Part shown: one piece after another, positions 20,786-38,838 of the stretch
Layout: every line of letters begins with the position of its first letter
Numbering within the stretch: the stretch's first letter is position 1
Source: a virus
IMG/VR virus record: IMGVR_UViG_3300034280_000140
Location: 1-42,154 of that record
Reading direction: 5' to 3' (one strand)
Length of the DNA: 42,154 nt
Made by a program: the position numbers and the translations under genes
Notes under the pieces: generated by a model
The model's input: only the letters and a program-made list of their open reading frames with translations
Databases searched by the model: none
Told to the model about the DNA's origin: nothing

Positions 20786-20952
20786 TATGTACCTCCCTTC
20801 TTTTTCTTGGAGGCATTCATGTTGTCAACAAGGTTGGGGTAAGGCCTACCGGCCTTCTTGGCTGCCGCCTTAGCGGATGCCTTCTGAGAGGGGGTCAACT
20901 TCTTATCCTTCTTTGAAGGGTCTTTGGTATCCCACACCTTCTTGTCAGCCAT
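20785..20952 (-). CDS. Small Lys/Ala-rich protein, 'GRPYPNLVDNM' type (55 aa)
   Basis: Read on the minus strand from ATG 20952, overlapping the upstream stop by one base (TGATG). The 55-residue product has a Lys-rich start, an Ala/Lys helix ('TPSQKASAKAAAKKA') and the motif 'GRPYPNLVDNMNASKKKK'. As I recall, this motif recurs in small basic proteins of environmental phages and bacteria, always unnamed. Strongly basic, so nucleic-acid or virion-DNA contact is plausible but unproven. Confidence 0.7.
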   Translation of the reverse strand: MADKKVWDTKDPSKKDKKLTPSQKASAKAAAKKAGRPYPNLVDNMNASKKKKGGT

Positions 20953-21227
20953 CAACAATCCCAGGCGCGCAACGACTTGTTGATACGACTGTTGGGATCG
21001 TTGGCAGTTTTGCTGCTCGTGTTCTTCTTCTTCATACCCTCCATGCGGGCGCAGAACGACTCACGACGAGCGGCAGACTTCTTTGACTTGGCAGCCTCTT
21101 CCTTCTTCACAGGGGGCTTCAAGTTGCTACCAGGGTTGGCCTTCTCATAGGACTTACGCCCCTTCTCGTTAAGGCCACCCTTAGGGTCTTTGCCTTCTTT
21201 ACGCTGCCAGGCTTCTGACTTAGCCAT
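20952..21227 (-). CDS. Small basic protein of the DUF6321 type (91 aa)
   Basis: Read on the minus strand from ATG 21227 with Shine-Dalgarno TAAGGAGA. The opening 'MAKSEAWQRKEGKDPKGGLN' followed by 'KGRKSYEKANPGSNLKPPV' and 'RRESFCARMEGMK' is the conserved signature of a small basic family common in environmental phages and some bacteria, which I associate with DUF6321. Function is unknown. About a third of residues are Lys or Arg. It leads a three-gene translationally coupled set. Confidence 0.75.
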   Translation of the reverse strand: MAKSEAWQRKEGKDPKGGLNEKGRKSYEKANPGSNLKPPVKKEEAAKSKKSAARRESFCARMEGMKKKNTSSKTANDPNSRINKSLRAWDC

Positions 21228-21443: not shown

Positions 21444-21688
21444 TTAGCTCCTAATACAGAAAAGACCGTGAGTCTTATGGCTAGTTTACACTAACCAACG
21501 GACTCACGGCCTGATCTGCGTTGCCCACCGGGCACCACCACTGGAGAACCACCAACCAGTGATGGCTTCAACCATACCGCCAAGAAATCCTCACCCACAA
21601 CCCTGGGGGGAGTTGTGGGGCCGAATTACTAGGTGCTACAGTCCAAGGTCCCGGTGACTGGGGTCACGTGGGCCAACAGGAGGTACCG
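21444..21688. other. Gene-free divergent control region with several inverted repeats
   Basis: About 245 bases separate the minus-strand operon from the replication operon, so promoters for both should lie here. No convincing -35/-10 pair is visible. Structures seen: CCGTGAGTC/GACTCACGG (21466-21509); CACTGG/CCAGTG (21539-21561); CCCACAAC/GTTGTGGG around a Gly-like G-run (21594-21619); and GTGAC/GTCAC extended by outer GGUCC/GGGCC pairing (~21648-21673). The last two lie just before the first replication ORF and could fold in its leader RNA. Confidence 0.55.
21466..21509. promoter_or_regulatory. Putative operator: 9-bp inverted repeat around a possible promoter
   Basis: CCGTGAGTC at 21466-21474 is repeated inverted as GACTCACGG at 21501-21509, 26 bases apart. 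The spacer is AT-rich with -10-like hexamers on both strands (TACACT on plus, TAAACT on minus). It lies 23 bases upstream of the minus-strand operon's first ATG. A repressor dimer site controlling divergent transcription would look like this, but no protein is known to bind it. Confidence 0.3.
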
Positions 21689-21754: not shown

Positions 21755-23004
21755 GCGTGCGCGTCATGACCTGGGTGTGGGACCAGGACCTACCTCCCAA
21801 CTTGAAAATCGTGTTGCTCGCGATAGCGGACCACAGTAACGATCAAGGCTGTGAGGCCTACCCATCGCAAGACACCCTGAGCAACAAGACGGGATACACC
21901 GTGCGCCAGGTGCGCCGGATCATCGACCAACTTGTGGAGGTGGGGTTGTTGGAGGTGTCAAAGGCGTGCTTGCCGGGTCGTCGGGGCGACCGCCAACCGA
22001 ACCTGTACCAGATCAACATGGCCACCCCGGTGCTCACCCGACGCTCCACCAGTGAGACAAATGTCACACAAAAGGAGGCCTGGCCAGCCACCAACGGGCG
22101 GACATCTTGGCACCAACGGGCGGACATTTGGGACACTCACGGGCGGACATCCATGTCCTCCTATCCATCCATAGAACCATCCATAGAAACATCCAAGTTA
22201 TACCTACTTCCTACGGAAGTAGGTGTGGGCCTTGCGGCCCACCTGGGAAATGGGAGTGCAACCGTGATTCTTGGCCAGGACCCAGATGACCAACCCACCG
22301 AGGTGGAGGCCCCAGCCAAACGGCCTGGGTCAGATCTGGTGGGGCTGGTGGGGCACTTCGTGCGGCACCCAGCCATCGTGATGTCACGGAGGTATTCACA
22401 GCAGGACACGATGATCCTCCGCAAGAGTGTGAAGTCATTGCTGGATGCTGGAGTTACCCGCTCCACGGTGGTGGCCATGATCGACAAGTTCTATGCCACT
22501 GACCGGTTCCGCACAGCGGAGCGCCCAGTGCTGTTGTTCAGCAAGAAAGACCTGCAACAGGAGTTGCTTGTTGCGGTGAATGGCTCTACAGTCGAATCCA
22601 ACCCTGTACTGGCCCTGCTTCAGCAGGAGTTCCACCGGCCCCCCGGCTTGGAACTACCCTGGTCATCAGAGTTGGATGCAGTACTCCGTCGTATTGTGAT
22701 GCGGCACTGCTTCGATGCCTGTTACCGATACCCAGAACTGGTTGCTGCTTTGATCTCTCACTTCGCTGATGACTTTCACAACGTGCAGTTTCCACAGTCG
22801 CTTGAAACACTTGACACCCTGCTTTCCAAAACTGCTGATGAGCATGACACAGACGACCTGCAACCCTACGTTGACACCCTCGCATCAATCATTACCTTGC
22901 CCAAAGAATTAATGAAACCCTCTCTAAAGACACTTCGCAAAGACGCTGATACGATAGAAGAAGCAATCTACGCTTATCGGAGGTCTTCCAATGTTCGCAG
23001 ATGA
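21751..23004 (+). CDS. Replication initiator with N-terminal winged helix (lambda O-like arrangement)
   Basis: 417 residues. Residues ~8-75 form a winged helix of the wHTH_36 type: 'LPPNLKIVLLAIADHSNDQG', 'AYPSQDTLSNKTGYTVRQVRRIIDQL' and 'VGLLEVSKA'. The middle (~100-190) is variable and holds three 22-bp DNA repeats read in two different frames, so it is shaped by DNA rather than protein constraints. The C-terminal ~200 residues are helical and have no motif I recognise. Genes for a helicase loader, a helicase and a primase follow, so it probably binds the origin and recruits the loader, as lambda O does. Confidence 0.75.
   Translation: MSVRVMTWVWDQDLPPNLKIVLLAIADHSNDQGCEAYPSQDTLSNKTGYTVRQVRRIIDQLVEVGLLEVSKACLPGRRGDRQPNLYQINMATPVLTRRSTSETNVTQKEAWPATNGRTSWHQRADIWDTHGRTSMSSYPSIEPSIETSKLYLLPTEVGVGLAAHLGNGSATVILGQDPDDQPTEVEAPAKRPGSDLVGLVGHFVRHPAIVMSRRYSQQDTMILRKSVKSLLDAGVTRSTVVAMIDKFYATDRFRTAERPVLLFSKKDLQQELLVAVNGSTVESNPVLALLQQEFHRPPGLELPWSSELDAVLRRIVMRHCFDACYRYPELVAALISHFADDFHNVQFPQSLETLDTLLSKTADEHDTDDLQPYVDTLASIITLPKELMKPSLKTLRKDADTIEEAIYAYRRSSNVRR
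22089..22155 (+). repeat. Three 22-bp iterons, candidate replication origin
   Basis: Copies at 22089-22110, 22111-22132 and 22134-22155 share the core ACGGGCGGACAT. The first two are tandem and match at 20 of 22 bases. The period of 22-23 bases puts the cores on the same face of the helix. Because 22 is not a multiple of three, the copies encode different peptides (NGRTSW, QRADIW, HGRTSM), so conservation is at the DNA level. They lie inside the initiator gene, as lambda's iterons do. Confidence 0.75.
22156..22242. other. AT-richer direct repeats and two hairpins beside the iterons
   Basis: Right after the iterons, 22161-22200 is about 62% A+T and contains repeated ATCCATAGAA. Then come a perfect 10-bp hairpin, ACCTACTTCC-tac-GGAAGTAGGT (22202-22224), and a 7-bp hairpin, GTGGGCC-ttgc-GGCCCAC (22225-22242). 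Iterons followed by an easily melted stretch and hairpins is the usual order of a theta-type origin. Still inside the initiator reading frame. Confidence 0.5.
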
Positions 23005-23272
23005 TGATCAACCGATGGTAATGCTGGGGTTTGGCTCTATGGATGATCTCATCCACTTCATCAACTGGGTGAACAACACGTTTGATGACCCCGAAGAACT
23101 CAAAGCGTACTTTGAAGATCAGTACGGCCACGGGTATGACAGTGATAACGATTGCACCCGCTCCGCAGCGGACAGCAAAGCACCGAACGACTTTGAGTTC
23201 TGGGACATTGTAAAGAACTCGTTCAAGAACCACCACGAGGAATCCAATGACGACCTTCATAACACCGACTGA
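22991..23272 (+). CDS. Small acidic protein in the replication operon (93 aa)
   Basis: ATG 22991 follows CGGAGG and overlaps the initiator gene by 14 bases; its own end overlaps the loader gene by 26. The product is acidic throughout ('MFADDDQPMVMLGFGSMDDL', later 'FDDPEELKAYFEDQYG'), with a helical middle. No family recognised. Its position between initiator and loader suggests a replication accessory or a small protein modulating one of them. Confidence 0.65.
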   Translation: MFADDDQPMVMLGFGSMDDLIHFINWVNNTFDDPEELKAYFEDQYGHGYDSDNDCTRSAADSKAPNDFEFWDIVKNSFKNHHEESNDDLHNTD

Positions 23273-23831
23273 CTGGAAGTCAGCAACATGGTGGCAAAAC
23301 CGATCCGTTGAAGAGCGCCTCTTTCACGCAAGGTTCCCCAAACGGTATGGGGACACAGACTCGGGGTTGAACCCCGAAGTCCAGCGATGGGCTGCTGGAT
23401 ACCAACCTGGTGACAGCCTGCTGTTGTACGGAGCCAGCGGTGTGGGAAAGACGACAACTGCTGTTACTGCCCTGACAACTCTGATCAATAAGCAGCAGGT
23501 GTCAGGTCGGTTCGTGAGTGCTGACACGTACATCGAAATGTTGAAAGACCAGTTCGGTGGGTCCGACAACCTGCTGCCTGAGATGTACAGCACTCCGTAC
23601 TTGGTGAAGTACATCCAGGGTGTGTTCGATGTTGTCATCGTGGATGGCTTGGGTCAGGAGCGGGAAACAGAGTTTGCCATTCATGAGATTGGTTCTCTGT
23701 TGCGCCGCCGCTTTGATGACATGCGTTCTACGGTCATCACTACGACGCTTTCACCCATGAACCTCATTCGCCGGTACGGCGAGCGTGTGTCGGGTGTGGT
23801 CAACGCCATGACCGTTGTCAGGGTTGCCTGA
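23247..23831 (+). CDS. DnaC-like AAA+ helicase loader
   Basis: 194 residues. Walker A 'YGASGVGKTTTAV' puts the nucleotide-binding Lys at residue 68; Walker B 'FDVVIVDGLGQE' lies near residues 127-137. The C-terminal 'IGSLLRRRFDDMRSTVITTT' with 'LIRRYGERVSGVV' matches sensor-I and arginine-finger regions of DnaC/IstB-type ATPases. It would load the phage DnaB-like helicase at the origin. It is shorter than E. coli DnaC (245), mainly at the N-terminus. Confidence 0.85.
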   Translation: MTTFITPTDWKSATWWQNRSVEERLFHARFPKRYGDTDSGLNPEVQRWAAGYQPGDSLLLYGASGVGKTTTAVTALTTLINKQQVSGRFVSADTYIEMLKDQFGGSDNLLPEMYSTPYLVKYIQGVFDVVIVDGLGQERETEFAIHEIGSLLRRRFDDMRSTVITTTLSPMNLIRRYGERVSGVVNAMTVVRVA

Positions 23832-23832
23832 C

Positions 23833-24282
23833 ATGGAACGTGGTGACATTAGTGGTCACACTGCTCCATCACAGGTGTGTGTGTTTGAGGGGTTACTTGC
23901 TTCTCCACCGTCGAAGAAGAACGTCAATCTGTTGAAGCATCAGGTGTATGTCCGTCAGGGGAAGTGGGATTTAGCACTAGCGTTCTGGACTGCTAACGAA
24001 CTTCCGTTGAAGTCAATGGTTCACCATTACACACACTTAGGGATAGCCACTGATGTGGTTACGTTCCTGTCACCCGATGCGGTGGAACCCATCTACAGAT
24101 GGTTGTTGCGCAAGGTTGAGTCGGTGCCCAGCATCCTGTACTATCCCTCCCCTTCGGCCTACGCCGACGATCTGAAGTACAACCGTTCGATCACCTCGGT
24201 GTACGTACCAGACCAGTCGATGGCCTTCGACATTGGTATGCGGGCTACCACCGTGTCACCATTAACTACCTGGGGGTTGTGA
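23833..24282 (+). CDS. Unknown replication-operon protein (149 aa)
   Basis: ATG 23833, one base after the loader stop, is preferred over an in-frame TTG at 23815 inside the loader gene. The product contains 'LLASPPSKKNVNLLKHQVYV', 'WDLALAFWTANELPLKSMVHHYTHLGIATDVVTFL' and 'YYPSPSAYADDLKYNRS'. It is helical and aromatic, without a motif I know. Its place between loader and helicase, with overlapping ends, implies co-translation and a possible role in the same complex. Confidence 0.65.
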   Translation: MERGDISGHTAPSQVCVFEGLLASPPSKKNVNLLKHQVYVRQGKWDLALAFWTANELPLKSMVHHYTHLGIATDVVTFLSPDAVEPIYRWLLRKVESVPSILYYPSPSAYADDLKYNRSITSVYVPDQSMAFDIGMRATTVSPLTTWGL

Positions 24283-25541
24283 TGTCGTCCAGCGAGTTGC
24301 ACCTCATTTCCAAAGTCATCCATGACAAGGATCTGAGCGTTCCGGTGAAAGCCGGATTGAAAGCCGACCACTTCGTTGGCGAGTGGTCAGCCATCTGGCG
24401 GTGGTTGATCGACTACACCGGCTTGCACGGCATGGTTCCGACACCTCGCGTGTTTGCCCAGGACTGGGGTGACATCCAGTTGTACGACCCCTCCGATCTA
24501 GCGGACGAACCGTACACACGTTTGCTTGATGAGATCCTGAGTGCCTACCGCAAGCGGTGCTTGCTAGATGCTCTGCAACCTGCCATCTCTGCTCTGAACG
24601 CTGACGACCTGGCAACGGCTACCGCCACACTTCACGCCGGTCTGCAAAAGGCGATGGTGGAAGCAGCCCGTATGCGGGACGTGGATATCATCCAGAACTG
24701 GGAATCCCGCCTTGACCGGTACGAGCAGATGCGAAACACTCCCAACGCTCTGCGGGGTATCCCTACCGGGTTTATTGGGCTGGATCGAATCACTCATGGC
24801 CTGCGGCCTCAGCAGTTCATTGTCTTTGCCGGTGAACCAAAGCGTGGTAAGAGCCTCTTCGCTCTCATCCTGGCGAACAGCGCACACATTCACGGCTTGC
24901 GTCCGTTGTTCGTCTCGTTTGAAATGAGCATCGAAGAGCAGGAAGCGCGGTACGACGCGCTGATTTCCAAGGTTCCTTATGACAGGATCTTGAGTGGCGA
25001 CTTGTCGAACAGCGAGATGAAGAGGATCAAGCAGGAGTTGTCACGTCGCAAGAACATGCAACCGTTCCTGTTCTCCGAAGACACGGCGTCCCTCACCACG
25101 GTGGGTGCCATTGCTGGCAAGGTGCAGGAGTACCGCCCTGATGTGTTATTCGTGGACGGCGTGTACCTGATGGATGACGAGGAGGGAGAAGACAAAGGGT
25201 CGCCCCAGGCGTTGACAAACATCACCCGGTCATTGAAGCGTCTAGCCCAACGGTTCGATATCCCCGTCGTGGCGACCACCCAGGTTCTGGCCTGGAAACT
25301 GAACAACAAGAAGACACGAGCAGTAACCGCCGACAGCCTTGGGTACAGTTCCAGTTTCTCCCAGGACGCTGATCTCCTGTTAGGCGTAGAACGTAACCCT
25401 GACTTTGATAACCAAGCGATCATCAGAGTGGTTATCGCCCGCTCCAGCCCCTCCGGCGAGGTGCACGTGAAGTGGGATTGGACCACCATGGAGTTTACTG
25501 AGATTCTGGACCACTATGGCAGCGACCCATCTTTCGACTGA
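24282..25541 (+). CDS. Replicative DNA helicase, DnaB family
   Basis: 419 residues from ATG 24282 (an adjacent GTG at 24279 is possible); the ATG overlaps the previous stop. Walker A 'AGEPKRGKSLFAL' (Lys ~190), 'LFVSFEMSIEEQEARYDALI', Walker B 'DVLFVDGVYLMD', then 'DIPVVATTQVL' and 'LGYSSSFSQDADLLLGVER' are DnaB motifs in order. The N-terminal ~140 residues form the primase/loader-binding helical part ('LIDYTGLHGMVPTPRVFAQDW'). A hexameric 5'-3' helicase is expected. The primase gene overlaps its end by 26 bases. Confidence 0.92.
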   Translation: MSSSELHLISKVIHDKDLSVPVKAGLKADHFVGEWSAIWRWLIDYTGLHGMVPTPRVFAQDWGDIQLYDPSDLADEPYTRLLDEILSAYRKRCLLDALQPAISALNADDLATATATLHAGLQKAMVEAARMRDVDIIQNWESRLDRYEQMRNTPNALRGIPTGFIGLDRITHGLRPQQFIVFAGEPKRGKSLFALILANSAHIHGLRPLFVSFEMSIEEQEARYDALISKVPYDRILSGDLSNSEMKRIKQELSRRKNMQPFLFSEDTASLTTVGAIAGKVQEYRPDVLFVDGVYLMDDEEGEDKGSPQALTNITRSLKRLAQRFDIPVVATTQVLAWKLNNKKTRAVTADSLGYSSSFSQDADLLLGVERNPDFDNQAIIRVVIARSSPSGEVHVKWDWTTMEFTEILDHYGSDPSFD

Positions 25542-26442
25542 GATTCAGGAACTTCTTGAATCGGTAGGGGTAGATATCACACGGGCCGGTGATCGTGAGA
25601 TCACTGGTCGATGCCCTGTACACGAACGCGTCACTGGTCACGCTGATCGCTCTCCATCATGGAGTATTAATTCCAATACAGGCCTTTGGATCTGTTTTAG
25701 TTGTGGTGCCCGTGGCACCCTCTCCAGCCTGTTAGCAGAGTTATCAGGAGATAGCGGTCTATCAGCGCAATCATTTCTTATCCAATCTGGCCTCAACCGG
25801 CTTGTGGATAACTTTGATAAAGACAATAAACCCCAATATACGGAAGCGCCAGCAGTCCGACTGGATGACTACTACCGCTTCGTGCGGGTGAGTGATAGTC
25901 GTTGCGAATCACGTAACCTCAACGCCGACGCTACGTGGCGCTATGGCGTGAGGTGGGACCCAGAGGATAAGGCTTGGGTTGTTCCTATAGTTTCTCCGAT
26001 GGGCAAATTACAAGGGTGGCAGGCGAAGAAGGTTGGTTGGTTCCGCAACCGCCCCGATGGTGTGGAGAAAGGGCTGACGTTGTTCGGTGTTGAGAGGTTC
26101 AGGCACCGTGTTGCCGTCCTCGTAGAATCACCGTTAGACGTAGTGCGTCTAGCGTCAACAAGTGTTGACGCCCAAGGCCTCGCCACCTTTGGTGCCCAGG
26201 TTTCTAGCGAACAAGGTAGGCTTGTCGCCCACCTCTGTGATACAGTGATAATTGCTATGGACAACGACAAGGCAGGCCTTGAGTCCAGCAAGCGGTTGTA
26301 TGCCACCCTGACACCACCACGTCACGGCATCAAGTGGTGGAATTACACCGGCGTGTCAGCCAAAGACATCGGGGACATGACGGACGAAGAGATCGTGCGG
26401 GGCTTTGAAACCGCAACAGTTGTACCACCCTGGATACGATAG
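25516..26442 (+). CDS. DNA primase (CHC2 zinc finger and Toprim)
   Basis: 308 residues. The zinc finger uses C33, H36, C60 and C63 ('GRCPVHERV' and 'LWICFSCGARG'). The Toprim core has E204 ('VLVESPLDVVRL') and D249/D251 ('IAMDNDKAGLESS'), the metal-binding residues for primer synthesis. The protein is half the length of bacterial DnaG and lacks the C-terminal helicase-binding domain, as in many phage primases. It starts inside the helicase gene. Confidence 0.9.
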   Translation: MAATHLSTEIQELLESVGVDITRAGDREITGRCPVHERVTGHADRSPSWSINSNTGLWICFSCGARGTLSSLLAELSGDSGLSAQSFLIQSGLNRLVDNFDKDNKPQYTEAPAVRLDDYYRFVRVSDSRCESRNLNADATWRYGVRWDPEDKAWVVPIVSPMGKLQGWQAKKVGWFRNRPDGVEKGLTLFGVERFRHRVAVLVESPLDVVRLASTSVDAQGLATFGAQVSSEQGRLVAHLCDTVIIAMDNDKAGLESSKRLYATLTPPRHGIKWWNYTGVSAKDIGDMTDEEIVRGFETATVVPPWIR

Positions 26443-28662: not shown

Positions 28663-28990
28663 CGAAACGCAAGACATCGTGCAAGAGTTGTACGATTGGG
28701 CAGACATCATTGACGGGGTACAAGGCAAAGCCAACGTGGTGATGCTTAGTAGTGCCGTGTTCGTTGATGCGGCTGCTGAGATCACACTGCTACGAGAGGA
28801 GCGTGACGACCTACAGGTGCTTCTCCGAGGCAGGACAGCAGAGTTGCAATCAGAGAACGAGCGGTTACGCACTGCTGGTAATGCGCTGGCTGATGCTGTG
28901 GTGGTGTGGTATGCTAAGGCGCTTCCCCGTACGGCGACGACACGCCTCAGCGACGCCCTTGCCGCATGGCAGGCAGGAGGCCCGTCGTGA
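28655..28990 (+). CDS. Array gene 1: coiled-coil protein with 'RLR.AG.AL' and 'ALAAWQ' C-terminus (111 aa)
   Basis: ATG 28655 overlaps the previous gene by eight bases. After an acidic helical start ('MSDETQDIVQELYDWADIID'), a coiled coil runs through 'ITLLREERDDLQVLLRG' and 'LQSENERLRTAGNALADAVV'. The C-terminal ~45 residues are a paralogue of the next gene's: both have RLR-x-AG-x-AL, a Y-x-K pair, and end in ALAAWQ. Its 3' end carries the first copy of the start cassette that launches the next gene. No biochemical function can be read. Confidence 0.6.
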   Translation: MSDETQDIVQELYDWADIIDGVQGKANVVMLSSAVFVDAAAEITLLREERDDLQVLLRGRTAELQSENERLRTAGNALADAVVVWYAKALPRTATTRLSDALAAWQAGGPS

Positions 28991-29322
28991 GCGGTGACAT
29001 CAAGGCTGGAGACCGAGTGAGTGACTACTCTCGTGACCACGGCACCGTTATTGCAGTCCATCTCAATATGGCATGGGTTCAATGGGACTACGGACACCGT
29101 ATGTACCCAGGTAAGTTCAACCTCAACCATGTTGAGCCTCTTGAAAGGCTCGTTGTTGTTCCTGCCGACGACGACATAGCACGTCTGCGGGCCGCTGGCG
29201 ATGCGCTGGAGTTCATGCTGAGTTTCTACGTCAAGCACTTCAGCCCCGTAGGAACAGGACACATGGCGAAAGAGGAAGCACTCGTCGCCCTGGCCGCATG
29301 GCAGGAGGTCCGACGTGGCTGA
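28987..29322 (+). CDS. Array gene 2: KOW/SH3-like small domain plus 'RLRAAGDAL' C-terminus (111 aa)
   Basis: GTG 28987 in the cassette GGAGGCCCGTCGTGAGCGGT overlaps the previous stop by four bases. N-terminal 'MSGDIKAGDRVSDYSRDHGT' with 'VIAVHLNMAWVQWDYGHRM' looks like a small SH3-like barrel (a 'G.rV.d....GtV..v....v.V.wd' pattern). The C-terminal half ('DDIARLRAAGDALEFMLSFY' ... 'ALVALAAWQE') is paralogous to array gene 1. It seems to be a modular two-domain protein built by exchanging N-terminal modules. Confidence 0.65.
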   Translation: MSGDIKAGDRVSDYSRDHGTVIAVHLNMAWVQWDYGHRMYPGKFNLNHVEPLERLVVVPADDDIARLRAAGDALEFMLSFYVKHFSPVGTGHMAKEEALVALAAWQEVRRG

Positions 29323-29404
29323 AGTAGTAGCCGAGGCAGTGACAGTTGTTCTTGGAGTCATCACTGCGTGGTTCCTCGTGTTTGGTGGTCGTCGTGAGCG
29401 GTGA
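29315..29404 (+). CDS. Array gene 3: 29-aa single-pass membrane micro-protein
   Basis: GTG 29315 lies in a cassette-like sequence (GGAGGTCCGACGTG) and overlaps gene 2 by eight bases. The product has one hydrophobic helix, 'AVTVVLGVITAWFLVFGG', flanked by an acidic N-terminus and the basic end RRER. It overlaps the following gene by 11 bases. Short, but ribosome binding site, overlaps and membrane-helix composition support it. It may target the host membrane. Confidence 0.5.
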   Translation: MAEVVAEAVTVVLGVITAWFLVFGGRRER

Positions 29405-29693
29405 CATCGTGGTCGGGAACGTCAAGTATCGCCGTATCCAAGGCGTTTGGACAATGACGCCTAGTGGCACTGGCGGCATGTTTCACATCGACCCACGCCG
29501 CCGTGAACTACTTGACGAGATCGAACGACTGCGCGCCGAGGCGAGTCGTAGTTGCATAAATTGCGCAAGCGGTGTTGCTCGTCAGCGCAACGAGCCGGGA
29601 GAAGTTGTTGTCTCATGTCGTGGCCCACTGAGAGGCAACGCATTCCTGATGCCGTTTTCCTGCTCCCAATGGAAGGAGCGCAGTGAGCACTGA
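29394..29693 (+). CDS. Array gene 4: small Cys-containing protein (99 aa)
   Basis: GTG 29394 in GTCGTGAGCGGTGACATC. Product begins 'MSGDIVVGNVKYRRIQGVWT', continues with the coiled 'RRRELLDEIERLRAEAS', and ends in a four-Cys arrangement: 'CINC' ... 'VVSCRG' ... 'PFSCSQW', likely one zinc site. 'EIERLRA' is the array's shared helix. The stop overlaps the next start by 11 bases. Confidence 0.6.
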   Translation: MSGDIVVGNVKYRRIQGVWTMTPSGTGGMFHIDPRRRELLDEIERLRAEASRSCINCASGVARQRNEPGEVVVSCRGPLRGNAFLMPFSCSQWKERSEH

Positions 29694-29982
29694 CGGCGTG
29701 GAGCGGGTGAGGCTCAGTGACCTTTTGGCTGGCTGGGCACCTGGGTCGTATGACGACCGATGGACGTGGAACGACGAGCGCGAGTGGCTCTGGCACTGCC
29801 ACCGAGAGCAAATGGTGGACCTCGTTGCCGACATCTCAGCAAACGGGGTCAGGGAGCCAATCCTGCTCGGTGATGACGGGCGTGTGTGGGATGGACATCA
29901 CCGCATCTGCGCAGCGATAGAACTCAATCTCACCGAACTGCCGGTTGCGCAACATCATCGGCCACAAGGAGGCCCGCCGTGA
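29683..29982 (+). CDS. Array gene 5: ParB/sulfiredoxin-fold domain protein (99 aa)
   Basis: GTG 29683 in GCAGTGAGCACTGACGGC. Residues ~44-90 read 'MVDLVADISANGVREPILL' then 'DGRVWDGHHRICAAIELNL', the ParB N-terminal signature with D70-G-H-H-R74. In ParB and its nuclease and sulfiredoxin relatives this loop binds nucleotide. There is no helix-turn-helix or dimer domain, so it is a stand-alone ParB-like domain, a type found in phages as nucleases, ADP-ribosyl-transfer-like enzymes or regulators. Activity cannot be assigned. Confidence 0.75.
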   Translation: MSTDGVERVRLSDLLAGWAPGSYDDRWTWNDEREWLWHCHREQMVDLVADISANGVREPILLGDDGRVWDGHHRICAAIELNLTELPVAQHHRPQGGPP

Positions 29983-30275
29983 GCGGTGATGTCCGGCATC
30001 CAGCCTGCGTCTCCGCATGGCCCGAGTGCATCGACGGCGAATACCACCCAGACTGCTGCCGCTTCCCGAAGTCGTGCAGTTGCGCCACGGTTTGGCCTAC
30101 TGAGAAAAGAGCGGCCGTGGCCGACGACCGAGAACTCCATTGGTGCTCCACGCACGGGGAGCCAGCCTGGCTGTACGGGGATGGTTCGATGCAGTGCATG
30201 TACGACCTCATTGTGGAGCGGTGCAGCAACGACCACATCCTCGTCCCCATCAGTGTCAACTTCGCGGACACCTAG
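29979..30275 (+). CDS. Array gene 6: Cys/His-rich small protein (98 aa)
   Basis: GTG 29979 in the cassette AAGGAGGCCCGCCGTGAGCG. The product has nine Cys, in 'ACVSAWPEC', 'DCCRFPKSCSC', 'LHWCSTHGEP', 'MQCMYDL' and 'VERCSND', plus several His, so one or two zinc sites are likely. It is the last gene before a 136-base gap, where the chain is interrupted by a promoter. No family recognised. Confidence 0.55.
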   Translation: MSGDVRHPACVSAWPECIDGEYHPDCCRFPKSCSCATVWPTEKRAAVADDRELHWCSTHGEPAWLYGDGSMQCMYDLIVERCSNDHILVPISVNFADT

Positions 30276-30355
30276 TTCTTTTCACAGAACTATGTCGATG
30301 GAGAACATACCGATTCCTCGCGGTCTACGAATCTCCCCTGATAGGCTCTACACAG

Positions 30356-30385
30356 TTGACTTATCAGTTACTGCCGACGTAAGAT
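30356..30385 (+). promoter_or_regulatory. Sigma70-type promoter inside the small-gene array
   Basis: TTGACT at 30356-30361 and TAAGAT at 30380-30385 with an 18-base spacer. It lies in the only gap of the array (30276-30411) and 26 bases before the next gene's ATG, with AGAAGGGA as ribosome binding site between. A 33-codon ATG frame (30292-30393) overlaps it and is judged non-coding. Confidence 0.45.
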
Positions 30386-30411
30386 ACCGGTAGCAGCACA
30401 GAAGGGATCAC

Positions 30412-30648
30412 ATGGAGAGCAACATCGAACAGTCGGCGGAGAGTGACCGAGGCGGGAAGCGCACTCATGTCACCATCCGGGAGACACACTTCCCCAATCA
30501 GACGGTTGTTGACATCGTGCATGTCTCCACTGGCGAGGTGCTCATGTCCGACTCCTTCTCCGGCCGATGGGGTGGCCTGGACTACCAGCGCGGATGGTGG
30601 ATGGAGCAGTGCGAGGCTTACGGCTGGGAGATGGTCGATCGTGCTTGA
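30412..30648 (+). CDS. Array gene 7: small hypothetical protein (78 aa)
   Basis: First gene after the internal promoter, with ATG 30412. The product 'MESNIEQSAESDRGGKRTHV' continues with beta-rich 'HFPNQTVVDIVHVSTGEVLM' and 'WGGLDYQRGWWMEQCEAYGW'. It lacks the MSGD start, consistent with having its own promoter and ribosome binding site. The stop overlaps the next GTG by eight bases. Function unknown. Confidence 0.6.
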   Translation: MESNIEQSAESDRGGKRTHVTIRETHFPNQTVVDIVHVSTGEVLMSDSFSGRWGGLDYQRGWWMEQCEAYGWEMVDRA

Positions 30649-30847
30649 CGACGACATCGTGACGCCGACAGATCGTTGTAGGCAGATCCCCAGCGGCGAC
30701 CAGCCCATCGTGGTCTGCGAACGTGAGACATTGTGGGCCGAGATCGACCGGCTGCGAGGCTTACTTGCCGAATTGCTGACCGACTGCGAGAACTCGGGTT
30801 ATGCGCCCAGCCCCCGCTACGCCGAAGCACTGGAGTGCGTGTCGTGA
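30641..30847 (+). CDS. Array gene 8: small coiled-coil protein (68 aa)
   Basis: GTG 30641 in a diverged junction ('MLDDDIVTPTDRCRQIPSGD'). Contains the array helix in 'WAEIDRLRGLLAELLTDCEN'. Three Cys are present but not paired as a zinc motif. Its 3' end forms the next start cassette (GTCGTGAGCGGTGAC), overlapping by four bases. No family recognised. Confidence 0.55.
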   Translation: MLDDDIVTPTDRCRQIPSGDQPIVVCERETLWAEIDRLRGLLAELLTDCENSGYAPSPRYAEALECVS

Positions 30848-31095
30848 GCGGTGACCTCATTCAGCAGTTACTGGACGACCTCGCCGCCGAGCGGGCGCTG
30901 GCCGACAGATTGGCCGACGCGCTGCGAGCAACCAAGAGTAGCAATCGGTCATGGTCCGATCGCCTTGCTGACGTAGCGCTTGCCGCCTACAAGAATGCCC
31001 GTCGTGCGTCGATGACGGGGGCTGAGCGGTATTTCGCTGCCCGCCTTGCTAACCCCGAGTACCGACAGGCATACGAGGAGGCCCGCCGTGAGTGA
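30844..31095 (+). CDS. Array gene 9: helical charged protein (83 aa)
   Basis: GTG 30844. 'MSGDLIQQLLDDLAAERALA' starts a long Ala/Arg-rich helix followed by 'WSDRLADVALAAYKNARRAS' and a C-terminal 'YRQAYEEARRE'. The EARR end is produced by the next cassette's DNA read in a second frame. Likely all-helical; function unknown. Confidence 0.55.
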   Translation: MSGDLIQQLLDDLAAERALADRLADALRATKSSNRSWSDRLADVALAAYKNARRASMTGAERYFAARLANPEYRQAYEEARRE

Positions 31096-31402
31096 GCGAG
31101 ACATCGTGGAACGGCTGCGTGACGCGCACCAGACCGTACCGATCCCAGCCATTGCATCGCTCTACAGCAATGCTGCCGACGAGATCGAACGGCTGGGTGC
31201 CGAGATGGAGCGGCTGCGTGCTGCTCTGCGGTACATCTCCAGCCCCACCATGTCGCTGCCAGGCGGTGCAGACGCAGCGCAGCACGCCCTTGTTGCCGAC
31301 GAGCGTGCCGTTCGCCTGGCGCTGGAGACGTGCATCCGCACGGCCCGAGAGGCGCTCACCAACGGTAGCGCCAGCGCTGCACATGTGGGAGACCCGTCGT
31401 GA
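31088..31402 (+). CDS. Array gene 10: helical protein with repeated 'ERLR' heptads (104 aa)
   Basis: GTG 31088 in GAGGCCCGCCGTGAGTGAGC. 'MSERDIVERLRDAHQTVPIP' leads to 'NAADEIERLGAEMERLRAAL', a coiled coil, then a helical 'DERAVRLALETCIRTAREAL'. The 'DIVERLR' start is shared with the next gene, indicating duplication. Ends in GDPS from the cassette read in its first frame. Confidence 0.55.
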   Translation: MSERDIVERLRDAHQTVPIPAIASLYSNAADEIERLGAEMERLRAALRYISSPTMSLPGGADAAQHALVADERAVRLALETCIRTAREALTNGSASAAHVGDPS

Positions 31403-31647
31403 GCGGTGACATTGTGGAGCGGTTGCGAAATCATCTTGACAGCATGTGCATGAACAACATCGTGTGTGGCGACGCCGCCAACGTGCTTGACGCCATCGAC
31501 GCACTGCCCGACACGATCCGGTTAGCCGGGTTTCACATGACCCCAGCCGCCCAACTGCTGGCAATGGAGCGTGAGCGTGGCTACGCCGACGCCATGCGCC
31601 AGGTCAAGGCCCTGCTCCACCCGAGGGAGGCCCGGCGTGAGCGGTGA
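31399..31647 (+). CDS. Array gene 11: 'DIVERLR' protein (82 aa)
   Basis: GTG 31399. 'MSGDIVERLRNHLDSMCMNN' is an N-terminal paralogue of array gene 10. 'NIVCGDAANVLDAIDALPDT' then 'ERERGYADAMRQVKALLHP' follow, and the end is REARRER. The 'DIVERLR' plus 'DAA..L/I' opening is typical of small phage proteins of unknown role. Overlaps the next start by 11 bases. Confidence 0.55.
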   Translation: MSGDIVERLRNHLDSMCMNNIVCGDAANVLDAIDALPDTIRLAGFHMTPAAQLLAMERERGYADAMRQVKALLHPREARRER

Positions 31648-31876
31648 CATTTGCGATTGGCTTGCCGAAGAGGAAGCCGCTGCCGAACAGTGGGGCGGCT
31701 TGGGCGGTGCCCAGTTCTATCGGGAACGGTTCGCCGCCGCCCGTGCCGAGATCGAACGGTTGCGGGCACTGGTCGATTCTGTGCTGGCATGTGACGGATC
31801 AGACCGCACCACGCACGTCACGGTTGAAATCCCGTTTGATTTGTACCACGAACTTGAGGAGGCCCGCCGTGTCTGA
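31637..31876 (+). CDS. Array gene 12: helical acidic protein (79 aa)
   Basis: GTG 31637 in GGAGGCCCGGCGTGAGCGGT. 'MSGDICDWLAEEEAAAEQWG' is followed by the array helix 'RAEIERLRALVDSVLACDGS' and a beta stretch 'THVTVEIPFDLYHELEEARR'. Ends in EARRV. Last gene of the array with the MSGD start. Function unknown. Confidence 0.55.
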   Translation: MSGDICDWLAEEEAAAEQWGGLGGAQFYRERFAAARAEIERLRALVDSVLACDGSDRTTHVTVEIPFDLYHELEEARRV

Positions 31877-32303
31877 TCCACTTGATCTGTTCAGAGATCT
31901 TCCTGACTACCCAGGTAACACTAAGCCCCGTAACCGCACAGCCCCGGCTAACAAGCCGGTAGCAAACGACTACCTCAACGGCGCAAAGTCCAAGGTGTAC
32001 CGCATGGGTGGCGTTGACCGTGAGTTCTTTACTGTGGGGGAGTTGGCTCGCGCCCTGAACCGTAAGCCCGTTACGGTGCGGATGTGGGAGCAGCGTGGTT
32101 GGATACCCAAGGTGAAGTACCGCACTGCCCCACCGGCTGGTACGCAGTTGCCAGGAAAACCGACGAAGGGTCGTAGGCTTTACACGAAGAATCAAGTAGA
32201 GTGTCTAGTGGAGGCAGTCGAACGGTTCCGGTTGGACGACCACAAGGCACCCAACTGGGTAGGGTTCCGTGAGTTCATCAGAACCAATTGGCCCTCCGAC
32301 TAA
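31869..32303 (+). CDS. MerR-like helix-turn-helix DNA-binding protein (144 aa)
   Basis: GTG 31869 uses the cassette's ribosome binding site (GAGGAGGCCCGCC) but the protein starts 'MSDPLDLFRD'. Residues ~53-80, 'FFTVGELARALNRKPVTVRM' then 'WEQRGWIP', form a MerR-type winged helix, followed by 'RLYTKNQVECLVEAVERFRL', the helix that continues the domain. No effector-binding domain is present. It may regulate the array or the polymerase operon that follows, or act in replication. Confidence 0.75.
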   Translation: MSDPLDLFRDLPDYPGNTKPRNRTAPANKPVANDYLNGAKSKVYRMGGVDREFFTVGELARALNRKPVTVRMWEQRGWIPKVKYRTAPPAGTQLPGKPTKGRRLYTKNQVECLVEAVERFRLDDHKAPNWVGFREFIRTNWPSD

Positions 32304-32326
32304 CACACACACACACACACACACAC
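32303..32326 (+). repeat. (AC)12 dinucleotide repeat
   Basis: Twelve perfect AC units begin at the last base of the MerR-like gene's TAA and end four bases before the GAGG ribosome binding site of the ssDNA-binding protein gene. Perfect dinucleotide tracts of this length are rare in phage genomes and prone to slippage. Here slippage would change only the spacer length. Confidence 0.95.
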
Positions 32327-33008: not shown

Positions 33009-35093
33009 ATGGCATTCGACGGTTTGGGGGGCAGCAATGCCCCCCATATCGTTTTTACGGTCGAAGGTCTGCAGGAGATAGTTCGTGCGGTAGAAGAGCA
33101 CGGTGAGTTCTGCTTCGACGTAGAAACGCGTGGAGTTGTTTCCCGGCACCCAGATGTTCTCGCCCAGATCGAAGACGAGTGGAAACTTCACTCCACCACT
33201 TTGAAGAGCACCCATCCTGACGTACTGAAGCGCTCCAAAGACTCCATTGTTGAGCGCTGGACGAAGACCCTTGCGCTAGATCCTCTGCGTAACGAAGTGA
33301 TCTGGCTAGGCATAGCGGTCACTGGCAAGTCGTGGGTGATTCCGGTTGGGCATCCGAATGGGTCGGTGTTGGAACCAGCACTCCGTGGTGACGGCTCAAC
33401 AGTGCCACCACCTGGCTACCGCAAGGTGTTAAAGAGCGGTAAGGAGTCTTTAGCAAAGGCTTCCTTTTTCAAGCCCGCTGTGTTCTCTCCCCCTCCTGAG
33501 CAGTTACCTAAGTCTGTGGTGTTTGACACTCTTCGTCCCATCTTCTTTGGCGACGCTGTGAAGATCGGCCACAACGTTAAGTTCGATGCCCGGTCTGTAC
33601 GCAAGTACTTCGGTGGTGACCTCCCAACTGGGCCGTTCTACGACACCATGCTGATTCAGCACGTACTCAATGAGAACCTAATGGCGTACTCATTGGAAGC
33701 ACTCATTGCCCTCAACTTTGAGGGGTTCAACCCCTACAACCTTGATGGGAAACTGGGCGCGGTCATCACCGAGGTGCCGTTCTTATCGGCTGCTCGTTAC
33801 CTGCATCTAGATGTTCGCTGGACCTGGTTGCTCTATCAGAAGTTGATGGGCAGGCTCGTGAAAGACCCAGTGTTGATGAACTGCTTTACGCAGGACTCAC
33901 AGGTACTGCGCGTACTGATGGCGATGGAAGACAACGGCATCCCTGTCAACCACCGTGCGATGAAGACCCTGGGTAAGAACTTGGATCGTCGGTTAGATGA
34001 ACTGATGCTTGACATGTACCAGTACGCCCCAGTGGGGTTCAACCCTGGAAGTACTCGCCATAGGCAAGATCTTCTCTTTGCCAAAAAGGCGCAGGGGGGT
34101 CTGGGGTTGAAGCCCTCTAAGTTGACCCCTGGCGGTCAAGCGTCTGTTGACGAAGAGACACTGCGCAAGTTAGAAGACAAACACCCTGTTATCCCCATGC
34201 TTCTGGAGTACTCAGACATAAAGAAGTCTGTGTCTACCTACGTAGACGGGTTGCTGCCACAACTTGTAAAGGGTCGTCTGCACCCGAACTTCAACCTGCA
34301 CCGCACGGTTACAGGTCGTCTGAGTGCTTCAAACCCTAACCTGCAGAACATTCCTCGTGACAGCGACATCCGTAGTTTGTTTGTGGCCCCAGATGAGTAC
34401 ACCTTGCTGGTGGCTGACTACGACCAGATCGAACTCCGTATCATGTGCATGTTCTCTCAAGACAAGAAGATGAGCGAGTTCTTCCTTACTGGTGCTGACA
34501 TTCACGCTGGTGCTGCGGCTCTCTGCCTTGGTAAAGACCTTGCTGACATCACTGCAGAAGAGCGGCAGATGGGCAAGGGTGCCAACTTCTTGGCAGCGTA
34601 CGGGGGTGGTGCCACTAAGTTGGCAAAGGCTGCCCGTATCCCAGAGGATCTGGCTAAGCAGTTTTTGGCTTATTACAACAAACAGTTCATAGGCATAACC
34701 AAGTGGAAGCGGCAGGCAGTTGCTGAAGGCGTAGCCCATGGTTATGTCACCACTATGTCTGGGCGTCGCCGTCGACTACCCGACCTCCGGTCATCCGATG
34801 ATGGTCTTCGGGCGCGAGCAGAACGCCAGGCAGTGAACGCCATTGTTCAGGGCACTGCGTCTGATATCTGTAAGCAAGCAATGGTGGCGTGCTATGACGC
34901 TTTCCAGGGAACTGACGCTCAGATGTTGGTTCAGGTTCACGACGAACTTGTGGTTGCCGTACCCTCTGAGCAGGCATCGGATATGAAGAGCATCCTGACT
35001 GCGGCTATGGGTGATGGTAGAGTAAACCTTGGGATTCCTCTCAAGGTTTCTTGCCATTCCGCTCATAGTTGGGACGAGGGTAAGGGTAAATGA
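33009..35093 (+). CDS. DNA polymerase I family A with 3'-5' exonuclease domain
   Basis: 694 residues. Exonuclease: 'FCFDVETRG' (D37, E39), 'KIGHNVKFDARSV' and 'YLHLDVRWTWLLYQ' supply Exo I-III residues, so proofreading is likely. Polymerase: 'HRTVTGRLSASNPNLQNIP', motif A 'VADYDQIELRI' (D470), motif B 'RQMGKGANFLAAYGGG' (R519, K523, F527, Y531) and motif C 'VQVHDELVV' (D645). No 5' nuclease domain. The position equivalent to E. coli F762 is Phe (F527). The start has no clear Shine-Dalgarno and lies six bases after the upstream stop. Main replicative polymerase. Confidence 0.95.
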   Translation: MAFDGLGGSNAPHIVFTVEGLQEIVRAVEEHGEFCFDVETRGVVSRHPDVLAQIEDEWKLHSTTLKSTHPDVLKRSKDSIVERWTKTLALDPLRNEVIWLGIAVTGKSWVIPVGHPNGSVLEPALRGDGSTVPPPGYRKVLKSGKESLAKASFFKPAVFSPPPEQLPKSVVFDTLRPIFFGDAVKIGHNVKFDARSVRKYFGGDLPTGPFYDTMLIQHVLNENLMAYSLEALIALNFEGFNPYNLDGKLGAVITEVPFLSAARYLHLDVRWTWLLYQKLMGRLVKDPVLMNCFTQDSQVLRVLMAMEDNGIPVNHRAMKTLGKNLDRRLDELMLDMYQYAPVGFNPGSTRHRQDLLFAKKAQGGLGLKPSKLTPGGQASVDEETLRKLEDKHPVIPMLLEYSDIKKSVSTYVDGLLPQLVKGRLHPNFNLHRTVTGRLSASNPNLQNIPRDSDIRSLFVAPDEYTLLVADYDQIELRIMCMFSQDKKMSEFFLTGADIHAGAAALCLGKDLADITAEERQMGKGANFLAAYGGGATKLAKAARIPEDLAKQFLAYYNKQFIGITKWKRQAVAEGVAHGYVTTMSGRRRRLPDLRSSDDGLRARAERQAVNAIVQGTASDICKQAMVACYDAFQGTDAQMLVQVHDELVVAVPSEQASDMKSILTAAMGDGRVNLGIPLKVSCHSAHSWDEGKGK

Positions 35094-37681: not shown

Positions 37682-37964
37682 TCGTAAGCAAGAGGATCGA
37701 ACAGCCTCGGCTTATCGGGGCAGCCGTAACTCTGGGTCTGGCTCAGGGTGGTTGCGTAAGAACGATGTGCGCTCAGAGCACTTCCTTATTGAGAACAAAC
37801 TGACTACTAACGCCAAGAGTTACTCGGTCAAGTTCACCGACCTACGAGACCTCTGCACTAGAGCAGTTCTAGAGGATAGAACTCCAGTTCTGCAGTTCGA
37901 CCTTGGTGGTCGACGCTTTGTGATCCTTACCGAAGACGACTTCTTGGAGTTTCTAGATGACTGA
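37653..37964 (+). CDS. PD-(D/E)XK nuclease, Holliday-junction-resolvase-like (103 aa)
   Basis: GTG 37653 is the likely start (a TTG at 37626 is possible). 'SRNSGSGSGWLRKNDVRSEH' then 'FLIENKLTTNAKSYSVKFTD' gives D38 and E47-x-K49, the catalytic core of small Hjc-like or VSR-like PD-(D/E)XK enzymes. 'RTPVLQFDLGGRRFVILTEDDFLEF' ends the fold. It probably resolves branched DNA before packaging. The gene overlaps both neighbours. Confidence 0.75.
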   Translation: MDHKGIIKASRKQEDRTASAYRGSRNSGSGSGWLRKNDVRSEHFLIENKLTTNAKSYSVKFTDLRDLCTRAVLEDRTPVLQFDLGGRRFVILTEDDFLEFLDD

Positions 37965-38838
37965 GACTCCGTGGTACCTGAAGAACTACAAAGAGTCTTT
38001 GACAAAGCGTGGACGAGTTATCCCTGTTGTTGAGCGCGAACTCACTCGCAAGGTGACTGAGCGCAATGCTCACCGTGATACAGACCACCTGCACCCCAGT
38101 GACTTGTCCAAGAAGAACTGGTGCCCAAGAGCGTCGTGGTACCGCATTACTGGTGCTCCTAAGACAGCAGAGTCTTTCTCGTTTCAGCGCCTAAACGTCT
38201 TTGAAGAAGGCCACAGCATCCACAATAAGTGGCAGACATGGTTGTGGGATGCAGGACTGCTTATTGGGCGCTGGGTGTGTCACGCCTGTGACAACTCTTG
38301 GTTCGCCAAAAGCCCTGAAGGGTGTTTGAGTTGTGGTTCGTCTAACATCTCGTATCGTGAAGTGCCCATCCGCGATGACGAGCACCACATCATTGGGCAC
38401 GCTGATGGAGAGATTGAAGACGATAAGGGTAGGGCACTCATTGAGATCAAGAGCGTAGGCATCGGCACTGTTCGATTTGAGAAGCCTTCGCTGTTCGATG
38501 ACTACCAGAGTGGCAAGTTGTCTATTGATGATGTGTGGAAGAACATAAAGACCCCTTTTGCATCGCACATTCGCCAGGGCAACTTGTACATGCACTGCCG
38601 CAAGGTAGACACCATCGTGTTTATCTACGAGTGGAAGCCCACTCAGGCAGTCAAAGAATTTGAGGTACGCCTCAACTCTGACATTGTTGCCCCTATGCTA
38701 AAGGGTTGTAAGCAAGTGATGTCTCATCTGGAGAGTAGCACTGTCCCTGATCGCCCTTCCTGGGCTGTAGGTAAGTCCTGTGACGGGTGTAAGTGGTGCG
38801 AGTTCAAGAAGGAGTGCTATGAGAGTTCTCAGCCGTGA
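37957..38838 (+). CDS. Cas4/RecB-like exonuclease with iron-sulphur and zinc-finger cysteines
   Basis: 293 residues. The PD-(D/E)XK core is 'GHADGEIEDD' (D150) and 'ALIEIKSVG' (E163-x-K165). One N-terminal Cys (C56, 'NWCPRASWYR') and a C-terminal group C275, C278, C281, C287 ('CDGCKWCEFKKEC') match the 4Fe-4S staple of Cas4/AddB-type nucleases. An extra zinc finger (C108, C111, C123, C126; 'CHAC' and 'CLSC') is inserted before the core. Phage Cas4-like enzymes process DNA ends for recombination. No cas1, cas2 or CRISPR array is present here. Confidence 0.85.
   Translation: MTETPWYLKNYKESLTKRGRVIPVVERELTRKVTERNAHRDTDHLHPSDLSKKNWCPRASWYRITGAPKTAESFSFQRLNVFEEGHSIHNKWQTWLWDAGLLIGRWVCHACDNSWFAKSPEGCLSCGSSNISYREVPIRDDEHHIIGHADGEIEDDKGRALIEIKSVGIGTVRFEKPSLFDDYQSGKLSIDDVWKNIKTPFASHIRQGNLYMHCRKVDTIVFIYEWKPTQAVKEFEVRLNSDIVAPMLKGCKQVMSHLESSTVPDRPSWAVGKSCDGCKWCEFKKECYESSQP

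Follow-up and report, generated by a model that had tools for sequence, protein, structure and literature searches.

The window is the whole stretch of viral DNA analyzed here, 42,154 bases long. It is probably a fragment of a larger genome, because related contigs reach 86–99 kb; one of them carries a 127-bp terminal repeat. Contractile tail genes are present in the window (sheath phrog_23, baseplate wedge and hub by family matches), and the sheath and baseplate confirm the myovirus-type genome named in the initial annotation. On the plus strand, a replication block runs in the order initiator, small ORF, DnaC-like loader, 155-aa ORF, DnaB, DnaG-like primase, SNF2-type helicase, and family A polymerase (Table 1). 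The succession of initiator, loader, DnaB, and primase is confirmed by family matches.

Table 1. Positions of the window, the replication genes, and the candidate origin elements
Feature	Coordinates	Strand	Details
Window	1–42,154		Virus DNA; IMG/VR record IMGVR_UViG_3300034280_000140
Replication initiator gene, 417 aa	21751–23004	+	HTH_36, E 2.9e-15; phrog_1032/391 ('replication initiation', 'O-like')
Iteron 1	22089–22110	+	Core 22094–22105
Iteron 2	22111–22132	+	Core 22116–22127; reading frame differs
Iteron 3	22134–22155	+	Core 22139–22150
Least stable 46 bp of the initiator gene	22161–22206		Nearest-neighbour duplex stability; overlaps the start of hairpin 1
Hairpin 1	22202–22224		Perfect 10-bp stem, loop TAC
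Hairpin 2	22225–22242		Perfect 7-bp stem, loop TTGC
Small conserved ORF, 93 aa, between initiator and loader	22991–23272	+	Relatives at ~23–34% identity
DnaC-like helicase loader	23247–23831	+	phrog_50, E 1.2e-18; kept in relatives
ORF, 155 aa, between loader and helicase	23815–24282	+	No family match; conserved in relatives
DnaB-like replicative helicase	24279–25541	+	DnaB_C, E 2.7e-35; phrog_19
DnaG-like primase	25516–26442	+	CHC2 zinc finger and Toprim (family matches)
Family A DNA polymerase	33009–35093	+	PF00476, E 2.5e-105

Several other features were observed in the window, in which tRNA and Rfam searches gave no match. An imperfect 29-nt inverted repeat (76%; 21457–21518, no Rfam match) is intergenic, between a DUF6321 gene (minus strand, 20952–21227) and the replication block. 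A Cas4-like exonuclease family protein is encoded in the replication arm (37957–38838; phrog_2506, phrog_1990), and an AC dinucleotide run (32303–32326) lies between two genes. In the stretch 28964–31651, which is 59–63% GC, a 38-nt unit that ends in GTCGTGAGCGGTGACAT occurs six times, as does AGGAGGCCCGCCGTG. The copies lie roughly where small ORFs with GTG start codons begin, and they may be a recurring signal that starts translation or transcription in a set of paralogous small genes.

The initiator protein consists of a winged-helix domain (residues 1–91), a disordered linker (92–192), and a helical C-terminal domain (195–416), as judged from HTH_36, the O-like PHROGs, and AlphaFold2. The AlphaFold2 model has a mean pLDDT of 66.9 with a low-confidence linker, and its domain arrangement serves as a rough guide. 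The O-like profiles cover residues 1–149 only. Homology to the lambda O family is confined to this N-terminal part, and full-length membership in the family was rejected. No phage record spanned 80% of the initiator query. With the C-terminal domain, a PDB fold search returned nothing beyond general winged-helix matches to the N-terminus; the matches in a viral structure library comprised a single full-length relative and numerous HTH phage proteins with replication or unknown functions. Initiator families of the RepE/pi/TrfA type were absent among the Pfam matches, apart from one sub-threshold RP-C match. Fold matches to the N-terminal domain of plasmid RepA (PDB 5kbj, 4pql, 4pt7) were weak (TMt ~0.45), with E-values of 0.3–0.8, and therefore point to general winged-helix likeness only.

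Repeats, unstable DNA, and hairpins in the linker-coding region

Exactly three copies of the core ACGGGCGGACAT are present in the whole record, all inside the initiator gene; the reversed-pattern control gave zero matches in the record. The copies belong to three 22-bp repeats (22089–22155), as the initial annotation had stated, and follow each other at 22 and then 23 bp. The repeats had also been said to be read in two frames. This is correct, with codon phases of 1, 2, and 1 (NGRTS, QRADI, HGRTS), and none of 5,000 synonymous-codon shuffles of the gene contained any 12-mer three times. The half-sites GGACA/TGTCC number five in 65 bp of the linker versus one in the remaining 1,189 bp. Iteron 3 together with 22145–22158 forms a perfect dyad, GGACAT-CC-ATGTCC. 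A full dyad is seen in the window at iteron 3 only; the iterons are otherwise mostly direct and asymmetric, and copies 1 and 2 are adjacent and 91% alike.

The DNA behind the iterons had been described as AT-richer. By GC content alone this is weak (0.47 versus 0.54 expected, z −2.0). GC content is ambiguous as a measure of AT-richness for the window, and duplex stability was used instead. By the nearest-neighbour measure the description stands, in that 22161–22206 is the least stable stretch of its length in the gene and ranks within the bottom 0.4% for the window. It is probably a DNA unwinding element. The 'ATCCATAGAA' repeats noted in this stretch are present in the window as a CCATCCATAGAA pair (22165–22176 and 22177–22188), but they are not conserved, and the pair is not repeated in the nearest relative, L009. 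Because an offset of 12 bp keeps both members in the same frame, the pair alone is uninformative on selection at the DNA level. We rejected it as an origin repeat, given the single frame and its absence from L009.

Two perfect hairpins occupy 22202–22242, as originally proposed, with a z of −6.2 against dinucleotide shuffles. A hairpin as good as the first arose in 2 of 1,000 synonymous shuffles; the first, with its 10-bp stem, lies at +43 from the last iteron. The hairpins of L009 are weaker and overall non-significant, and many other relatives have short stems only, often reached by shuffles. Inside the initiator gene of the L057–L068 group, a perfect 15-bp hairpin was observed at +58 (5185–5218 in L068). 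It occurs as three sequence types, with two compensatory base-pair changes between them.

Relatives and the recognition helix

Near relatives of the window initiator are limited to identical copies and L009, at 56% identity in the alignment, and the window type of repeat is common to L009 and two identical contigs only. Loss of the repeats in close relatives, named beforehand as a refuting sign, does not overturn the reading: L009 keeps one copy of the core, a GGACA-N4-TGTCC dyad (GGACA-CCCA-TGTCC, the counterpart of that at iteron 3), and five half-sites in 60 bp. GC skew, also suggested as a check, reaches its minimum close to the initiator in two cases, the window (23343) and the L009 contig (5959), but elsewhere in the more distant genomes checked. 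With no consistent support beyond these two, it was dropped as independent proof of an origin.

A wider set of relatives was gathered through the DnaB gene (80 loci, 60–100% identity). In about 50 of these, the initiator matches that of the window mainly in the C-terminal half (24–44%) and has a different winged-helix domain in front. Their linkers carry three to four palindromes at the same linker position, mostly GGGTCA-N4-TGACCC. A search of whole records with GGGTCANNNNTGACC found two to four copies in each of 14 records of 57–94 kb, in one cluster within ~100 bp. The cluster was at the initiator linker wherever the gene was read, with no copies elsewhere in the records; the reversed control gave none.

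Counted with at most two mismatches, 22 representative genes have three to four palindrome sites in the linker. The sites are spaced by 22, 23, 33, 34, 44, or 45 bp only, in ten arrangements. The spacings follow a period of ~11.1 bp (mean vector 0.96), and none of 4,000 random sets under the same frame limits did as well, in a test that ignores common descent and in which some of the 45s may represent a lost middle copy. The palindrome is read in two of the three codon phases; the third would place TGA in frame. Reading in two frames is thus a property of the whole family, which argues for selection on the DNA. The palindromic iterons of most relatives suggest binding of dimers, as in lambda; the mainly direct repeats of the window may leave room for monomers.

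In 24 of 24 family genes, the least stable 46 bp of the gene start 2–48 bp past the last repeat. In a more distant group, the initiator is split (L073, L075, L076, L078, L079, L082, L083, L085, and L087), and the corresponding stretch begins between +1 and +14 in six of eight members. There the winged-helix ORF ends soon past the iterons, and a separate C-terminal ORF of ~140 aa is found just before the loader.

The nearest cultured relatives reach only ~33% identity in the helicase, and a family-alignment search of prophages in bacterial genomes gave no relative. Streptomyces phage Alone3 was considered as a cultured counterpart and rejected; it has DnaB and a loader, without an adjacent winged-helix initiator or iteron array. 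Gene 111 of Alone3 (L129, 3142–3615) resembles the stand-alone C-terminal ORF that precedes the DnaC-like loader. In the open-access literature, our search found no paper describing this phage group.

When repeated dyads past the recognition helix were searched for without supervision, the repeat emerged at nearly all loci. Across 37 distinct winged-helix sequences, residue x of the motif T-V-x-R-S predicts the type of repeat without exception. Lysine (26 sequences) goes with GGGTCA, glutamine (one sequence) with AGGTCA, and isoleucine or methionine (ten sequences) with GTGTCA (six) or GGTAGC-N6-GCTACC (four). The association also separates a related pair at 56% identity, in which L132 has isoleucine and GTGTCA and L133 lysine and GGGTCA. 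On the tree, about four helix–repeat changes suffice, and as few as three or four may have occurred; the independent events are therefore few. In the alignment, the window initiator has R55 at position x.

We tentatively propose a specificity code, as a possibility that falls a little short of an even chance. One residue of the recognition helix (K, Q, or I/M) would set the outer base pairs of palindromic iterons, which lie on a lattice of ~11 bp within the codons of the linker. Binding domain and target would be inherited, exchanged, and evolving as one cassette, split initiators included. The window, with R55 and its GGACA-type repeat, would represent another state of this code, remote from the others.

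The predicted origin and its alternatives

Region 22089–22242 is very probably a phage replication origin set in the linker-coding part of the initiator gene, with binding of the iterons, opening of AT-rich DNA, and the loader and DnaB following. The layout, the conservation, the covariation of helix and repeat, and the gene order all argue for this reading, and it is from these that binding, melting, loader recruitment, and origin activity are predicted. Comparison with relatives supports the initial annotation in placing an iteron origin within the initiator, and the relatives make the lambda-type form of the reading strong. N-terminal winged-helix domains would occupy the three iterons, probably aligned in register on the DNA. 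The resulting nucleoprotein complex would strain and open the AT-rich stretch, and the C-terminal domain of the initiator would recruit the DnaC-like loader. The loader would then place the phage DnaB on the melted strand, with the phage primase and polymerase next. The downstream hairpins would form part of the origin, either bound as a dyad or folded in single-stranded form.

The hairpins, as distinct from the iterons, could instead be RNA elements unrelated to the origin, such as an attenuator or a determinant of mRNA stability. They are part of a gene that is transcribed, and the transcript would form the same folds. We consider this unlikely, since no T-run stands behind the hairpins and no terminator is listed there, the inverted repeat of lambda ori is found at the same distance, and the stems differ in sequence among groups while the window and L057–L068 both retain their place past the AT-rich DNA.

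It is very improbable that the repeats serve as an intragenic operator, through which the initiator regulates its own transcription, with the true origin elsewhere. Palindromes with about one helical turn between half-sites do resemble operators of dimeric repressors or of the CRP type, and the recognition helix of the family resembles that of CRP. Initiators of iteron replicons often also autoregulate. However, the sites are deep inside the gene, and a search for sigma-70-type sites gave no promoter-like match nearby. An operator has no need of the conserved unstable stretch that follows the repeats in every case, and the order of the elements matches lambda ori.

We see almost no chance that the repeats reflect protein-level selection for a repetitive linker peptide, or a recent tandem duplication, with no function in the DNA: linkers tolerate repeats, iterons 1 and 2 are adjacent and as alike as after slippage, and the CCATCCATAGAA pair keeps a single frame, but the iterons use two frames at a spacing that follows ~11 bp, are palindromic in relatives, covary with the recognition helix, and are not reproduced in threefold 12-mers by synonymous shuffling.

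For a large group of uncultivated myoviruses, this reading supplies a well-supported predicted origin. The set of relatives forms a natural experiment in which initiator and origin specificity change together when one encodes the other, and in which the demands of coding frame and helical phasing are reconciled. The predicted sites could be used in tests of origin function or for a readout of replication from metagenomic read depth. Two features seem to merit further work, namely the relation of helix to repeat and the strict spacing seen in many relatives.

Comparison with known replication origins

The predicted origin of the window phage is of the embedded kind already known, in a group without close cultured representatives. 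In iteron plasmids, the repeats are ~22 bp long. Those of R6K, RK2, and P1 resemble the window in having helically phased direct repeats beside AT-rich DNA (PMC5043065). In contrast to the window, most iteron plasmids have their iterons outside the rep gene, and their initiators are from another family; most bind monomers.

Embedded origins with protein-specific repeats are known from lambda (PMC7466680), the Salmonella phages P22 and L (PMC8022706), and SPP1 (PMC6316719). In gene 18 of P22 and L, as here, the type of repeat is specific to each O-like protein and is located in the coding region (PMC8022706). The repeats of phage L, TGTCCAACGGA, include the half-site TGTCC that is also present in the window and L009, which may be chance (PMC8022706). 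Phage L has six 11-bp repeats, in contrast to the three 22-bp units of the window.

The Bacillus phage SPP1 likewise has direct repeats and an AT-rich unwinding element (oriL) within gene 38, which encodes its origin-binding protein; a loader (gp39) and a DnaB-type helicase (gp40) of its own come next (PMC6316719). The initial annotation had treated a phage-encoded loader and helicase beside an embedded origin as unusual; both are indeed present, but genes 38-39-40 of SPP1 set a precedent. Initiation steps equivalent to those of lambda have been shown experimentally for the products of these genes (PMC6316719). Unlike the window phage, SPP1 is a siphovirus with a second origin, oriR, and depends on the host primase (PMC6316719).

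For lambda O and P, it has been shown experimentally that the initiator binds the repeats, AT-rich DNA opens, and a handover to the loader and DnaB takes place (PMC7466680, PMC5043065). As in lambda O, the window has a winged-helix-type N-terminus and mid-gene iterons, then AT-rich DNA, then an inverted repeat (PMC7466680), and the loader gene comes after that of the initiator. The C-terminal domain of the window initiator, unlike that of lambda O, matches no O family here. Lambda P takes the host DnaB, whereas the window phage encodes a DnaC-like loader, DnaB, and primase of its own. The iterons of lambda are inverted, and those of the window mostly direct. The claimed lambda O/ori arrangement holds when computed on lambda O itself: its iterons are spaced by 20, 24, and 23 bp, its least stable DNA is at +10, and its inverted repeat lies ~44 bp past the last iteron, against ~43 bp for the equivalent in the window.
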